Of a DNA stretch of 32,085 nt, positions 23,751-31,502 are shown piece by piece. A model generated the notes under the pieces. It did no database searches and was not told the origin of the DNA. It saw nothing but the letters and a program-made list of their open reading frames with translations. The stretch is from a virus. The stretch covers positions 1-32,085 of IMG/VR virus record IMGVR_UViG_3300032296_000623; one strand, written 5' to 3'. Positions within the stretch are counted from its first letter, which is position 1, and each line of letters opens with the position of its first letter. The position numbers and the translations under genes are program-made.

Positions 23751-24157
23751 TTCAGTGCCTCAACACCAGCAAACAGGGCGCCGTAGTGCTCGGGCTTGAC
23801 ATCGTTGATGTTGCCGTAGCCCAAGTTAGTAAGCACTTTCTGAATCTCGGCGCCCTTCTGGGGGCCAAGGGCTTTGTAGGACGACATGACGTAGTCAATC
23901 AACCCCTTCGGGTCGCTGAACGGTGCGCCACCAGTGGCCGCAGGTGCAGCTGGAGCGGGCGCCACGAAGCTGGGCGGTGCGGGCATCGCGGGAGCCGGTG
24001 CGGCCACAGGAGCAGGGGCAGGTGCAGGCGCGGCAGAGATTGTGACGGTATTGGGGTTTACCACAGGTGCCGCTGGCGCTACATTCGTGGATTCCAGCTT
24101 CGCGGTCAGGGCAACGACAGCGGCGGTGAGGGCTTCAATCTTGGATTCGAGGGACAT
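23747..24157 (-). CDS. Hypothetical early protein with Ala/Pro linker
   Basis: This 136-residue protein has three parts: an N-terminal coiled coil (SLESKIEALTAAVVALTAKL), an Ala/Pro linker at about 27-75, and a C-terminal helical domain (GLIDYVMSSYKALGPQKGAE, then NLGYGNINDVKPEHYGALFA). The modular look suggests an oligomerising adaptor. I do not know a homolog with a function, although similar C-terminal domains occur in phage early regions. It overlaps the RHH gene by 23 bases and the next gene by ATGA, and its start carries the leader variant AAGGAGTCACTGTATG. Confidence 0.7.
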   Translation of the reverse strand: MSLESKIEALTAAVVALTAKLESTNVAPAAPVVNPNTVTISAAPAPAPAPVAAPAPAMPAPPSFVAPAPAAPAATGGAPFSDPKGLIDYVMSSYKALGPQKGAEIQKVLTNLGYGNINDVKPEHYGALFAGVEALK

Positions 24158-24338
24158 ACAGTGACTCCTTACGGGGGTTGGGTTGGATTACAAGTCGATC
24201 ATCAAGAAAAGCCTCGATGAGTTCACGCAAGACATCGGACGGTTTCCCGTATCGCTCTGCCTTGCGGTTGAACGCGGTGCGGACACGGTGCGTGACTCTC
24301 AAGGTCATGTGCGTGTCAAAGGATTTGGGTGCGGGCAT
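24135..24338 (-). CDS. Ribbon-helix-helix-type regulator
   Basis: This 67-residue protein has the form of a ribbon-helix-helix DNA-binding protein: a beta strand MTLRVTHRVRTAFNRK, then KAERYGKPSDVLRELIEAFL with a turn at KPS between two helices. It is the first gene of the leftward replication operon, about 20 bases downstream of the predicted start of transcription from the bidirectional promoter. This suggests that it may autoregulate that promoter, whose outer arms form an inverted repeat; that is an inference. GGAG lies 10 bases before the ATG, a long spacing. Confidence 0.72.
   Translation of the reverse strand: MPAPKSFDTHMTLRVTHRVRTAFNRKAERYGKPSDVLRELIEAFLDDRLVIQPNPRKESLYVPRIQD
24155..24168 (-). 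promoter_or_regulatory. Shared translation-initiation leader, divergent copy
   Basis: GGAGTCACTGTATG on the minus strand: the same element as before the SSB gene, with one substitution and one base less before the ATG. Confidence 0.55.
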
Positions 24339-27362: not shown

Positions 27363-27580
27363 TGCATCTTCTCCTGCGTAACTTCGTCAACGTGCATCAT
27401 GGCGCCCAGGTACACGGCAAACGATGCCCGGGTGTCGTCGCCCAGTGGCATGGTGCTCAGACGCCGCGTGAACTCGTCCAGCGCCGCGTTCCACCCGGCG
27501 GCAAAGACCCATTTGGCTGCGTCTTTGGGCGACAGGCCATACTCGCCGAACAGGCGGTCATAGTGCTCGGGTGCGTTCAT
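27359..27580 (-). CDS. Hypothetical early protein, possibly once fused to the upstream HTH gene
   Basis: This 73-residue protein (NAPEHYDRLFGEYGLSPKDAAKWVFAAGWN...) is helical, with the AAGWNAALDEF element that is common in phage proteins. The stop of the previous gene overlaps its ATG (ATGA). In this frame the codons directly upstream of the ATG spell PGKIEAHVGEVR, another copy of the repeat found at the C-terminus of the upstream HTH protein. The two genes may therefore be parts of one ancestral ORF separated by a one-base deletion. Function unknown. Confidence 0.72.
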   Translation of the reverse strand: MNAPEHYDRLFGEYGLSPKDAAKWVFAAGWNAALDEFTRRLSTMPLGDDTRASFAVYLGAMMHVDEVTQEKMQ

Positions 27581-27876
27581 ACGGACTTCTCCAACGTGAG
27601 CTTCGATTTTGCCCGGACTTTCCCAACGTGAGCATTGGATTTAGCCGGGACTTCTTCTACGTGAGCATCGGGCTTACCCGGCACAAGGCCCGCATGCAGC
27701 GCAGGTGCCAGTGCTTCGATCATGCCCAGAACCTCGATCAGCCGGACCGCGGATGCCGCGGGCTTGCGCTCCCCCTTGATCCACTTGCGAAGGGTAAACA
27801 CGGGCACGCCCAGATATTCAGCGGCCCGGGGTTCATCAAGCCCCAGGCGGGCCATTAAATCGGTGTAAGGATTCAT
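27577..27876 (-). CDS. HTH DNA-binding protein with frameshifted C-terminal repeats
   Basis: This 99-residue protein has an N-terminal Cro/XRE-like helix-turn-helix (LGLDEPRAAEYLGVPVFTLR, KWIKGERKP) over about residues 10-40. After a helix it carries repeats of 11 residues: PGKPDAHVEEV, AKSNAHVGKVR and then AKSKLTLEKSV, where the last copy is scrambled because the third DNA unit is 32 instead of 33 bases. It is preceded by a terminator-like hairpin (27894-27919) and by GGAG 9 bases before the ATG. It could be a regulator of this operon. The role of the tail is unknown. Confidence 0.78.
   Translation of the reverse strand: MNPYTDLMARLGLDEPRAAEYLGVPVFTLRKWIKGERKPAASAVRLIEVLGMIEALAPALHAGLVPGKPDAHVEEVPAKSNAHVGKVRAKSKLTLEKSV
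27582..27684 (-). repeat. Three tandem 33-bp repeat units, one with a 1-bp deletion
   Basis: The core AACGTGAG recurs (27593, 27625; TACGTGAG at 27658). Spacing is 33 bases between the two units farthest from the stop and 32 between the two nearest, so one base is missing. The units encode the C-terminal AHV repeats of the HTH gene. The third unit is in frame with the downstream gene instead. Confidence 0.75.
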
Positions 27877-28568: not shown

Positions 28569-29228
28569 TTAAGCGGCAAGGCGCAGATTGATAACACGAT
28601 GACGCGACCCATGAGCGGGAAAGCCTACGATGGTGTCCCGCTGACGCTGGCATAGTTGGCAAGTGGCGCAGGAAATATCATCCCGCTGGGTTGCAGGGCA
28701 AACCACCACCCGGCGCCCCGCGGGGGTTTGAGTGTTTTCCGACTGGGTTGACGGTAGCACCACCACCACCGGCCCGGCCCCGGTATCGGCCAGCGTATCC
28801 GCATCGCGCAGATCATTGGCGCTTAGGTTGACGGTGAAACCCCATTCATTGGCATGCCGGATCCATGCCAGGCTTGCCGCATCGCGGTGATGCGAATAGG
28901 TAAACCCCCGCTTGCCCCGGTTTGCCGCCACCAATTGGCCCAGTTTGACCGGGTCAACAGTGTTGCCTTTCTTCGGCAGATCCCCCGCTTGATTGTGGCG
29001 CCACAGTTGATCATCGGGCAGTGCCGCAATCGAGGTGCAAAACTGACCCCAGTCAGTGCCCCGGGTGCCCGCTGACACCGCGGCCCAGTGCAAGGCTAGC
29101 GGCCCGGATGCTGCATAGCATTCTGACCGCATCGCACAATCGTCGGGGCACGAATCCCGCTCAGTGGTGCTGACGGGAATGGGGCCGGTTTTGACGTTGG
29201 CCGATTTAAGGGAAAGATGGACCCGCAT
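28569..29228 (-). CDS. Conserved Cys-rich phage protein (DUF7227-like)
   Basis: This 219-residue protein belongs to a phage family whose hallmark is NVKTGPIPVSTTERDSCPDD (residues 11-30), continuing CAMRSECYA, then LWRHNQAGDLP, GKRGFTYSHHRD, GFTVNLSANDLRDADTLAD and GPVVVVLPSTQ; I recall the name DUF7227 for it but cannot confirm. Cysteines occur in two groups, SCPDDCAMRSEC near the N-terminus and CPAT...SCATCQLCQRQR near the C-terminus, ending GFPAHGSRHR. They probably bind zinc or an iron-sulphur cluster, and the conserved His, Arg and Asn residues suggest an enzyme. The reaction is not known. It shares one base with its upstream neighbour. Confidence 0.75.
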   Translation of the reverse strand: MRVHLSLKSANVKTGPIPVSTTERDSCPDDCAMRSECYAASGPLALHWAAVSAGTRGTDWGQFCTSIAALPDDQLWRHNQAGDLPKKGNTVDPVKLGQLVAANRGKRGFTYSHHRDAASLAWIRHANEWGFTVNLSANDLRDADTLADTGAGPVVVVLPSTQSENTQTPAGRRVVVCPATQRDDISCATCQLCQRQRDTIVGFPAHGSRHRVINLRLAA

Positions 29229-29449
29229 TATTTGCCCCCTTGCAGTGCTGCCGCGATCCTATCGGCGTCAACAGTGCGGATCCACCCATACCCGTACCAT
29301 GACGGGCCGGATTTTCTGACTTCGCACGAATTCTCACCCCAGCACAATCTAATGTCAGTATGACCCCGGGCAGCGCTTAATTTAGCGGCTTTGATGCACT
29401 GGGCCAGCGAAGGGCGACGGCCCGTAAAGTTAATTTCATCCATGATCAT
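29228..29449 (-). CDS. Hypothetical early protein
   Basis: This 73-residue protein contains a helix (PSLAQCIKAAKLSAARGHTD) and a beta part (IRLCWGENSCEVRKSGPSWY, then GYGWIRTVDADRIAAALQGG). Function unknown; it resembles small phage proteins built as helix-hairpin-helix. The start overlaps the previous stop as ATGA (a second in-frame ATG is at 29443), with a GGGGG run upstream. Confidence 0.68.
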   Translation of the reverse strand: MIMDEINFTGRRPSLAQCIKAAKLSAARGHTDIRLCWGENSCEVRKSGPSWYGYGWIRTVDADRIAAALQGGK

Positions 29450-29754
29450 TTGCCCCCTTTGCGAGCGCTTACGCGGACCACATGGTAAGGATCACCATGC
29501 ACAGTGTGGGCAGTGATCAATTGGTGCGACGGGTCAAACCGGCGGGCTATCGTTTCCCAGTCAACCCGCTCACGCCCCGCCAACAATGACACAGTGGCGC
29601 GGTGCAGTGTGCCCTCGATTGCGGGCATGTTCGAGGAAATCAAAAATTCTTTGATGGTGTCCGCTTCAGCGGTCAGATCAGCGGTCAGGGCTTTGATTTC
29701 GGCCAGGCGGTCAACAAGGCCAGCAAGGATTGAGGGGGTTTCGGATTTGGTCAT
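29446..29754 (-). CDS. Hypothetical early protein, helical N-terminus
   Basis: This 102-residue protein has a long N-terminal helix (LAGLVDRLAEIKALTADLTA, EADTIKEFLISSN) and a segment AIEGTLHRATVSLLAGRERV followed by DWETIARRFDP, then a short beta end (HVVRVSARKGGK). I know this layout (helix, then E.TLFRATVS...DW..A) from phage early proteins of unknown function. The full shared leader GGAGTAACTGTAATG fixes the start. Confidence 0.75.
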   Translation of the reverse strand: MTKSETPSILAGLVDRLAEIKALTADLTAEADTIKEFLISSNMPAIEGTLHRATVSLLAGRERVDWETIARRFDPSHQLITAHTVHGDPYHVVRVSARKGGK

Positions 29755-29766: not shown

Positions 29767-29793
29767 AAGGTTACGGGTTACAGGGGATGAGGC

Positions 29794-29811
29794 GCGGGGC
29801 TTGCGCCCCGC
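29794..29811 (-). terminator. GNRA-type stem-loop between two early genes
   Basis: Stem GCGGGGC / GCCCCGC (7 bp) with a GCAA tetraloop on the minus strand. It lies between the small membrane protein gene and the next gene, with no T-tract. The same bases overlap a copy of the ACCCGCTGGGT-type palindrome (29806-29816). Confidence 0.6.
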
Positions 29812-29819
29812 TGGGTTAA

Positions 29820-29978
29820 TCAGCCCCGCAGAATCGCGGGTAGCTGTATGAGAACGATCAGGGCGAAGGTGCCCAGCACGCCGGAGACAATCGCGCCCAG
29901 GGCGATCAGCCAGTCGGGCGGGCTTGCGGGTTTTTCGGAATTCAATTCAAGGTAGGTTTGACGGTGACGGGATGACAT
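29820..29978 (-). CDS. Small membrane protein, first gene of the right-hand leftward operon
   Basis: This 52-residue protein has a hydrophilic N-terminus (SSRHRQTYLELNSEKPASPP) and one membrane segment at about 24-48 (LIALGAIVSGVLGTFALIVL, then IQLP). No family recognised. AAAGGA lies 8 bases upstream of the ATG at 29978; an upstream in-frame start would fall on the promoter. It is the first gene after the leftward promoter at 30018-30046, so it may be expressed early, perhaps as a host-membrane or superinfection factor, which is a guess. Confidence 0.7.
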   Translation of the reverse strand: MSSRHRQTYLELNSEKPASPPDWLIALGAIVSGVLGTFALIVLIQLPAILRG

Positions 29979-30017
29979 GATTACGGTCCTTTCAGGGTTA
30001 CGGGTTACGGTGAATAG

Positions 30018-30046
30018 ACTGTAACCCGCTGGGTTTGTCTTGTCAA
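30018..30046 (-). promoter_or_regulatory. Leftward early promoter with palindrome in the spacer
   Basis: On the minus strand a consensus -35 TTGACA (30046-30041), a 17-base spacer and -10 TACAGT (30023-30018). The start would be near 30011, about 33 bases before the first gene. The palindrome ACCCGCTGGGT (30024-30034) occupies the spacer and touches the -10, as an operator would. Confidence 0.7.
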
Positions 30047-30558
30047 GCCCCATGGGCAAAAATGTGTCTAGGTGCTTTCCCTTACCCGCTGGGTTGCCTT
30101 TTGGCACTGTGACAATTGTGCCTTTTGGTTCAGGGGGTCAGTTTTGAGGAAAACGCGCATCGAATAGAAAAAAGGTCAAAATTCGATGTCTTGCGCGAAA
30201 GGGCACCTTGTCACACTTTCCCGTTTTTCCCGCATTGTGAAATCCTGCACCCGCTGGGTCTGACCCACTGGGAATCCCTAGACCCGCTGGGTTCAGGGTT
30301 CCGCGGCCCCTCGAGCGGCCCCAGGCGCCCAGTGGGCACACTGACCCAGCGGGTTCCGGGTGCATTGCATGGCACTGGATCCGCTGGGTTCCGGGTGCCC
30401 CGGGGGTCCGCGGGCTTGCGGGATCCGGGCGCCCGCGGGTGAATCGGAAACCGGGAATCCGGCCGAGGGGGCGGGGGAGGGCCGACGGCAAACTGGTTCT
30501 GTAACTAAGGTGCCGCGAACAATTTTTTATTTTTTCTGAACCACGGAACCCGCTGGGT
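30024..30558. repeat. Array of 11-bp imperfect palindrome ACCCGCTGGGT
   Basis: Exact copies on the plus strand start at 30024, 30084, 30249, 30282 and 30548, and on the minus strand at 30344-30354. Near copies are at 30263 (ACCCACTGGGA), 30327 (GCCCAGTGGGC), 30379 (ATCCGCTGGGT), 29806 (CCCCGCTGGGT) and 28681 (TCCCGCTGGGT). The arms ACCC/GGGT form a dyad around GCT. Most copies are in non-coding DNA. They could be operators for a phage regulator or iterons of a replication origin. Confidence 0.75.
30158..30188. other. Inverted repeat CATCGAAT / ATTCGATG
   Basis: Two perfect 8-base arms flank a purine-rich 15-base centre (AGAAAAAAGGTCAAA). It lies in the non-coding region between palindrome copies at 30084 and 30249 and could be a protein-binding dyad or a hairpin. 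Confidence 0.55.
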
Positions 30559-30560
30559 CA

Positions 30561-30589
30561 TTGCACCTCGTTGAATTCGCTGATACACT
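30561..30589 (+). promoter_or_regulatory. Rightward promoter before the methyltransferase and terminase genes
   Basis: -35 TTGCAC (30561-30566), a 17-base spacer and an extended -10 TGATACACT (TACACT 30584-30589). A palindrome copy ends 2 bases upstream of the -35, and an AT tract (30521-30535) lies in UP-element position. The start would be near 30596, only a few bases before the ATG at 30600. Confidence 0.5.
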
Positions 30590-30599
30590 CCCATCCACT

Positions 30600-31502
30600 A
30601 TGGAACAAGGCAACCCTCAATCCGTAGGCACGGCTGTCGCCAGTGAACAATCTCTTCCAAGCTGGCTGTCGTGCCCTGACCCCAAGCCACCGAAGCTCCC
30701 AGCAGAGTCGCGGGAGCTTCTGCACGCCCAGTACCAACAGATCTTCGAACGGGTCATTGAAGACATCTATCGTGGGCGCTCACTTCAGTCCTTGATCGAG
30801 GATGACTACAGGCTCATCAGCTACGAGGACTTCCTGCGCAGCGTCTACGCCAGCTACTACGCAGTCATGAGAACAGGCGCTGTGATCTACGTTGCACACG
30901 GCGAGTCTGAACGCGCAGCATTCACAGACTGCATGGTGGAGGCCGGACTGAAACTGTCACAGGTGCTGATCTGGGTGAAGCAAAGCGCCACGCTTTCACG
31001 CCAAGACTTCAACTGGCAGCACGAGCCAATCCTCTACGGGTGGAAGGAAGGCTCTGGCCATTACTTCTGCGGCAACTTCACGCTGACAACGGTGATCGAC
31101 GATGACGTCGACCTGAAGTCAATGAAGAAGGAGCAGCTCATCGAGATGATCAACGAAATCCGCAACAAGGCCAGCGGAACAATCATCAGGCACAACCGGC
31201 CAACCAAAAGCGATCTGCACCCGACCATGAAACCAGTGGCGCTGGTAGAACGCATGATCGAATGGAGCAGCCACCCAGGAGATATCGTGCTCGATCTGTT
31301 CGGTGGAAGTGGAAGCACGCTGATCGCTGCACAGAAAGCAAACCGGCAAGCGCGTCTGATGGAACTCGATCCGAAGTTTGTTGACGTCATCATCAAGCGC
31401 TGGCAGGAGTTCACCGGCAAGCAGGCAACACACGCAGAAACTGGAAAACCTTTCGCGGAGGTTAAAAATGGCAACGAAAAAGCAATTGCAGAAGCAGCAT
31501 GA
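30600..31502 (+). CDS. N6/N4 DNA methyltransferase-like chimera with HTH-like N-terminus, no DPPY motif
   Basis: This 300-residue protein has a clear methyltransferase C-terminus: FLRSVYASYYAVMRTGAVIY (79-98), LIWVKQSATLSRQDFNWQHE (123-142), DLHPTMKPVALVERM (205-219), motif I LDLFGGSGST (231-240) and ELDPKFVDVIIKRW (255-268). The catalytic motif IV (DPPY) that should lie N-terminal to residue 65 is missing; the equivalent stretch reads ERVIEDIYRGRSLQ. Residues about 40-85 (HAQYQQIFERVIEDIYRGRS, LQSLIEDDYRLISYEDFLRS) instead resemble the HTH of phage small terminase-like proteins. It may bind DNA and S-adenosylmethionine without methylating. No Shine-Dalgarno precedes the ATG, so the start is tentative (TTG 30561 is an alternative). 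Confidence 0.72.
   Translation: MEQGNPQSVGTAVASEQSLPSWLSCPDPKPPKLPAESRELLHAQYQQIFERVIEDIYRGRSLQSLIEDDYRLISYEDFLRSVYASYYAVMRTGAVIYVAHGESERAAFTDCMVEAGLKLSQVLIWVKQSATLSRQDFNWQHEPILYGWKEGSGHYFCGNFTLTTVIDDDVDLKSMKKEQLIEMINEIRNKASGTIIRHNRPTKSDLHPTMKPVALVERMIEWSSHPGDIVLDLFGGSGSTLIAAQKANRQARLMELDPKFVDVIIKRWQEFTGKQATHAETGKPFAEVKNGNEKAIAEAA

Follow-up and report, generated by a model that had tools for sequence, protein, structure and literature searches.

What does an uncultured freshwater phage do with many copies of one short palindrome gathered in a single intergenic region, and which protein would bind them? The question is raised by a 32,085-nucleotide stretch of an IMG/VR contig (IMGVR_UViG_3300032296_000623), which was analysed as a whole and is called the window below. 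It codes for a P22-type coat and stabilisation protein, as well as a Prim-Pol/DUF3987 replication protein, a DUF2800 protein, and an Enc34-type single-strand binding protein. The closest named relative is phage DSL-LC05, a metagenome-assembled genome of the proposed family 'Luchaoviridae'; the words promoter, repeat, palindrome, and repressor are absent from the main text of the paper concerned (PMC10611076).

The repeated unit, ACCCGCTGGGT, is an imperfect palindrome with 4-bp arms (ACCC/GGGT) and a 3-bp centre. As an earlier note on this DNA had stated, there are six exact copies, five on the plus strand and one on the minus strand, together with several variants (Table 1); all of the exact copies lie inside 30024-30558 and none elsewhere in the window. 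Copies with one mismatch start at 28681, 29806, and 30379, and two further imperfect sites were read from the sequence. The nine matches with at most one mismatch are far beyond chance (0.73 expected, sd 0.83; largest value 4 in 100 shuffles), and a reversed-pattern control gave 0 copies in the window. The earlier note had proposed such a count and had regarded its idea as lost if the 11-mer were spread everywhere or were not conserved in position among related phages. The idea survives, as the 11-mer is rare, and related phages have it mostly in one cluster at a conserved place. The two promoters described there, with their adjoining copies, are likewise borne out by the sequence. The main array (30024-30558) is non-coding; its flank from 29806 includes a small ORF.

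Table 1. Sites, promoters, and genes of the proposed switch, in window coordinates
Feature	Position	Strand	Basis or remark
HTH protein (proposed binder; 99 aa) with an MqsA-like XRE/HTH domain, in the leftward operon predicted to be read from PL	27577-27876	-	
Variant CCCCGCTGGGT, upstream of ORF 29446-29754, function uncertain	29806-29816	+	one-mismatch copy
Promoter PL: TTGACA (30046-30041), 17 bp, TACAGT (30023-30018)	30018-30046	-	conserved in relatives
Site 1, predicted PL spacer operator, abuts the -10	30024-30034	+	exact copy; register in relatives
Site 2, 60 bp upstream of the PL site	30084-30094	+	exact copy
Middle site	30249-30259	+	exact copy
Imperfect middle site ACCCACTGGGA	30263-30273	+	sequence
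Middle site	30282-30292	+	exact copy
Imperfect middle site GCCCAGTGGGC	30327-30337	+	sequence
Middle site, centre in opposite orientation	30344-30354	-	exact copy
Middle site with one mismatch, ATCCGCTGGGT	30379-30389	+	mismatch search
Last site, upstream of PR; centre about -44 from the inferred transcription start	30548-30558	+	helical phasing, 93 distinct relatives
Promoter PR: TTGCAC (30561-30566), 17 bp, TACACT (30584-30589)	30561-30589	+	sequence; conserved -10
Start of the terminase small subunit (TerS) gene, first gene of the late operon	30600-30839	+	methyltransferase tail joined at 30828-30839

In about 100 related phages, the corresponding intergenic region holds 3-11 sites of the type ACCC-RNY-GGGT. 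The commonest form among them is ACCCANTGGGT, and the phage of the window mainly uses a GCT centre. In 227 sites from non-redundant relatives, selected by the pattern ACCC-N3-GGGT, the centre is mostly A-N-T, the outer two bases being A and T in 80%. As 80 viral contigs were picked via their primase gene, this selection was blind to the sites, and most of those contigs that reach TerS have the array at this same intergenic place. Further independent scans, one with the DNA pattern and one with the HTH profile, both returned the same phage group. In 26 related records of 35-39 kb there are 1-10 sites each, mostly in one stretch, compared with 0-2 occurrences of the reversed pattern. The only other dense arrays that the viral scan matched, in two unrelated phages (L216 and L238), were rejected, both being coding repeats; the former, a 171-kb viral contig, contains ACCCACTGGGT eleven times within a 21-bp tandem repeat that is coding (L216:88-392) and unrelated to the operators.

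The earlier note had named two genes as candidates for the binder, HTH (27577) and RHH (24135), of which the first is favoured by the relatives. The HTH gene is present at 97 loci with three or more sites, at eight with one or two, and at one with none, and it is absent from five loci, all of which have 0 sites. One of these (L075) has the genes on either side of the HTH gene and lacks precisely that gene. The HTH-less loci form one group, and the co-loss is therefore probably one event. Four HTH proteins with Lys31 (L058, L301, L313, and L333) are accompanied by few sites.

Profile comparison with the PDB places the antitoxin MqsA closest to the HTH protein (3fmy, E 4.6e-4), and the Pfam MqsA_antitoxin model matches 15 of 18 HTH members at E up to 1 (best 1.5e-4), the window protein falling below the curated cut-off. 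A structure model (mean pLDDT 84) resembles HigA2, MqsA, and other XRE folds with weak Foldseek E-values (best 0.25), so that the match to MqsA rests on profile score and fold class. MqsA recognizes ACCT-N3-AGGT, for which Asn97 and Arg101 are needed, whatever the bases of the spacer (PMC5422877). The profile alignment places Phe27 and Lys31 of the window protein opposite these two residues. A clade with His at the place of Lys31 has GGAT in 36% of its second half-sites, compared with 1%; it lacks the last site near PR, and the Lys-to-His change was probably a single evolutionary event. The co-loss and the half-site change support, rather than prove, the assignment, and we consider the HTH protein very probably to be the binder of the ACCC-N3-GGGT sites.

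At the leftward promoter PL, the register TTGACA-N5/6-site-TANNNT recurs in 63 of 115 distinct upstream regions of relatives under a strict definition, compared with 1.3% of random positions. The other 52 miss the exact register by this strict test, and some of them have other overlaps of promoter and site. Sites 1 and 2 are 60 bp apart in the window, and a spacing of 57-61 bp is the most frequent among relatives. A protein on the spacer site must compete with RNA polymerase, and thus repression is the natural reading. All genes from PL to the HTH gene are leftward, as expected if they form one operon; with the HTH gene in this predicted operon behind PL, repression of PL would be autoregulatory.

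At the rightward promoter PR, the last site ends 2 bp before TTGCAC, and the ATG of TerS follows 10 nt beyond the -10. In relatives, the TerS start is preceded by an invariant ACT (CACT in 92%) and by an extended -10, TG-N-TAnnnT, at -18 to -11, so that distances to the ATG can stand for promoter distances. On this scale, the last sites of 92 of the 93 distinct relatives are within 2 bp of -53, -63.5, or -74, three classes one helical turn apart whose windows together hold 47% of positions. Likewise, 94 regions have a site within 80 bp, and in all but one of them (93) it starts at -52 to -56, -62 to -65, or -72 to -75. The phasing to the ATG is strong (Rayleigh R 0.85 at 10.25 bp). On the TerS tree, at least 39 changes among the three distance classes are required, compared with 38.8 for shuffled labels, and even TerS pairs more than 98% identical may differ by one turn, for example the window (-52) and L287, which is the same contig as L009 (-64). 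The three classes being scattered over the tree, the last site moves often, yet stays on one helix face. As judged from these comparisons, its position relative to the promoter matters. The phasing shows that the face of the helix is important, and is mute on activation versus repression. Activators in contact with the polymerase typically have such a phase-locked site around -44, -55, or -65. The earlier operator reading is thus strongly supported for two copies, the one in the PL spacer by its fixed register and the one upstream of PR by helical phasing.

Several smaller features accompany PR. In most relatives, an A/T tract precedes the last site and stops about 12 bp short of it (about 30522-30536 in the window). 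It shifts with the last site, so that tract and site behave as one module, and it is present also where the last site is absent. The CACT-ATG comes directly after the -10 (window 30596-30602), and the TerS mRNA is probably leaderless. OR003940.1 has the TerS start annotated at 33277, 39 codons after the conserved one (L007 33394).

With a probability of about 0.7, we read the sites as operators of the phage's own 99-residue HTH protein, by which PL would be repressed and PR activated in an early-to-late switch with presumed dual control. The HTH gene would be expressed early, in the leftward operon from PL, and its product would bind ACCC-N3-GGGT as a dimer. On accumulating, the protein would cover the spacer site of PL and shut off its own operon, and on the last site, bound to the correct face of the helix, it would help RNA polymerase to start at PR, whose operon begins with TerS and continues to the packaging and structural genes. 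The further sites in the middle would probably form a cooperative complex that couples PL and PR. We infer binding, repression of PL, activation rather than repression of PR, and the role of the middle sites from sequence comparison. A tyrosine integrase (PF00589) was found in none of 11 records (the window and ten relatives; controls positive in 14 of 14), so an early/late switch fits better than lysogeny. A search of a genome collection with the HTH profile found no relative, and therefore neither a host nor a prophage was assigned.

The middle sites vary in number and place across relatives. However variable their places, 356 spacings between neighbouring middle sites have a period of 5.3 bp, half a helical turn, with a Z of 32.6 compared with at most 9.8 for jittered spacings, the kinship of the loci being ignored in this calculation. 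Half-turn spacing would agree with a regular complex whose dimers sit on one face of the DNA or on opposite faces. These sites may serve to couple the promoters, to store protein, or to aid replication; promoter control alone falls short of explaining them.

The same spacing bears on the main rival account of the HTH protein, in which it represses both promoters, PR by means of a DNA loop that joins the last site to the middle or PL sites, and the phasing reflects the geometry of the loop. Many sites per region with half-turn spacing suit loops, and the last site shows some phasing with its closest upstream neighbour (R 0.43 at 10.5 bp). However, the phasing to the promoter is far stronger than this or than that to the PL operator (R 0.29), and the centres at about -44, -55, and -65 are places for an activator, at which the core site of the polymerase is left uncovered, unlike at the PL operator. 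We therefore regard repression by looping as unlikely.

Between the PL-side and middle sites lies an inverted repeat, GTGACA...TGTCAC (window 30108-30214), with arms about 100 bp apart, which is conserved, also in relatives without the HTH gene. When treated as RNA, the element folds better than shuffled sequences (z -3.3), and an Rfam search with it gave no match. We rejected a structured RNA at this place, as an alignment of 44 relatives had only the six invariant outer pairs and no covariation, the arms being part of the selection pattern. With invariant arms and no covariation, a DNA element for another protein is more likely than an RNA.

The neighbourhood of this conserved element, the many copies in a non-coding stretch, and the half-turn spacing of the middle copies would agree with a replication origin whose iterons are bound by a phage initiator, as one of the possibilities raised in the earlier note (origin iterons or a nucleation array) would have it. 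However, the five HTH-less relatives keep the primase gene and the inverted repeat and have 0 sites, and thus replication does not need the sites. Furthermore, two copies are locked to promoters, and the copies are not arranged head-to-tail, as they occur in both orientations with gaps that are irregular apart from the 5.3-bp period. An iteron origin is therefore quite improbable. The iteron or nucleation idea is unneeded for the promoter-locked copies, and may apply to the middle copies only, where the half-turn period is not something that operators require.

Even less probable is a packaging (pac) signal bound by TerS. TerS proteins have a DNA-binding domain, and in related phages the sites are always just upstream of the TerS gene. 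However, TerS is kept at all five HTH-less loci; five phages whose TerS N-termini are 70-72% identical to that of the window have no site, whereas phages with a TerS just 54-61% identical do have sites, and one copy is inside the spacer of a promoter facing the other way. The weakest candidate is the RHH protein (24135-24338), a small DNA-binding protein found in nearly all relatives, since it is present in four of the five site-less relatives (L069, L073, L075, and L076), the contig of the fifth (L074) ending before the gene. Relatives that have these genes and no sites thus led us to reject both TerS and RHH as binders.

The dual control of early and late promoters proposed here for the HTH protein resembles that of Bacillus phage phi29 (p4 and p6; promoters A2b, A2c, and A3). 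In phi29, one early protein of the phage occupies inverted repeats that separate early from late promoters; it represses the former and activates the latter simultaneously (PMC3100819). Here, too, there are sites linked to an early as well as to a late promoter. However, p4 is apparently unrelated to the HTH protein, whose best matches are XRE/MqsA-like, and the present array has 3-11 short sites spread over about 550 bp, with presumed activation. In addition, phi29 uses p6, of which no counterpart was identified here. The system would therefore work like p4, with no claim that it belongs to the p4 family.

The likeness to MqsA lies in the C-terminal HTH of the 99-aa protein, for which MqsA is the closest solved structure by profile, with Lys31 at the place of Arg101, and in the target, as ACCT-N3-AGGT (PMC5422877, PMC4894380) and ACCC-N3-GGGT have the same geometry. 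However, MqsA antitoxins have defining cysteines, whereas the HTH protein has none and thus no zinc-binding N-terminal domain. MqsA also has the toxin MqsR as a partner; none was identified here, the immediately neighbouring ORFs having no Pfam match. Moreover, the MqsA-like domain here would serve early and late phage promoters.

In phage lambda, several operators between divergent promoters at OR allow one HTH protein, CI or Cro, to repress one promoter and activate the other. The present system differs in that no tyrosine integrase was found, the protein has a single domain of 99 aa, and the sites are 11 bp; on present evidence it is not a lysogeny switch. The C proteins of restriction-modification systems are also small XRE/HTH proteins and are among the fold matches of the HTH model. 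Those of the C.Esp1396I type are reported to repress and activate in a cooperative switch (PMC3115060). In contrast to them, the protein discussed here is phage-encoded and would act on two separate divergent promoters with many more sites.

We put at somewhat short of even the chance that these phages represent an undescribed family of switches, in which a very small MqsA-like regulator builds an ordered nucleoprotein array with half-turn spacing across both promoters, and for which natural relatives have repeated the helix-phasing experiment at the late promoter dozens of times. The proposal gives a concrete circuit, with a named protein, sites, and promoters, for a phage group known almost only from metagenomes, with DSL-LC05 as its one named member. 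The repeated whole-turn hops of the late-promoter site provide a clear test, made by nature, of whether a protein bound upstream exerts stereospecific control, and the pairs of sites and HTH proteins with Lys or His in the recognition helix make specificity directly testable. The proposal also suggests that MqsA-type DNA-binding domains serve as regulators of phage development.

Two other observations concern the flanks of the array. On the right, an ORF at 30600-31502 begins with the N-terminus of one phage's terminase small subunit (as in L009) and, from the junction at 30828-30839, runs on into a DNA methyltransferase of another type (as in L089), of which it has the C-terminal part and lacks the conserved start. 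The window is alone among 58 loci in having this join, which is either a recombinant or an assembly chimera. On the left, GTTACGGGTTAC repeats are found at 29770 and 29997 of the window, just upstream of the leftward genes, and the same repeats occur in L007, L011, and L075, whether the HTH gene is present or not.
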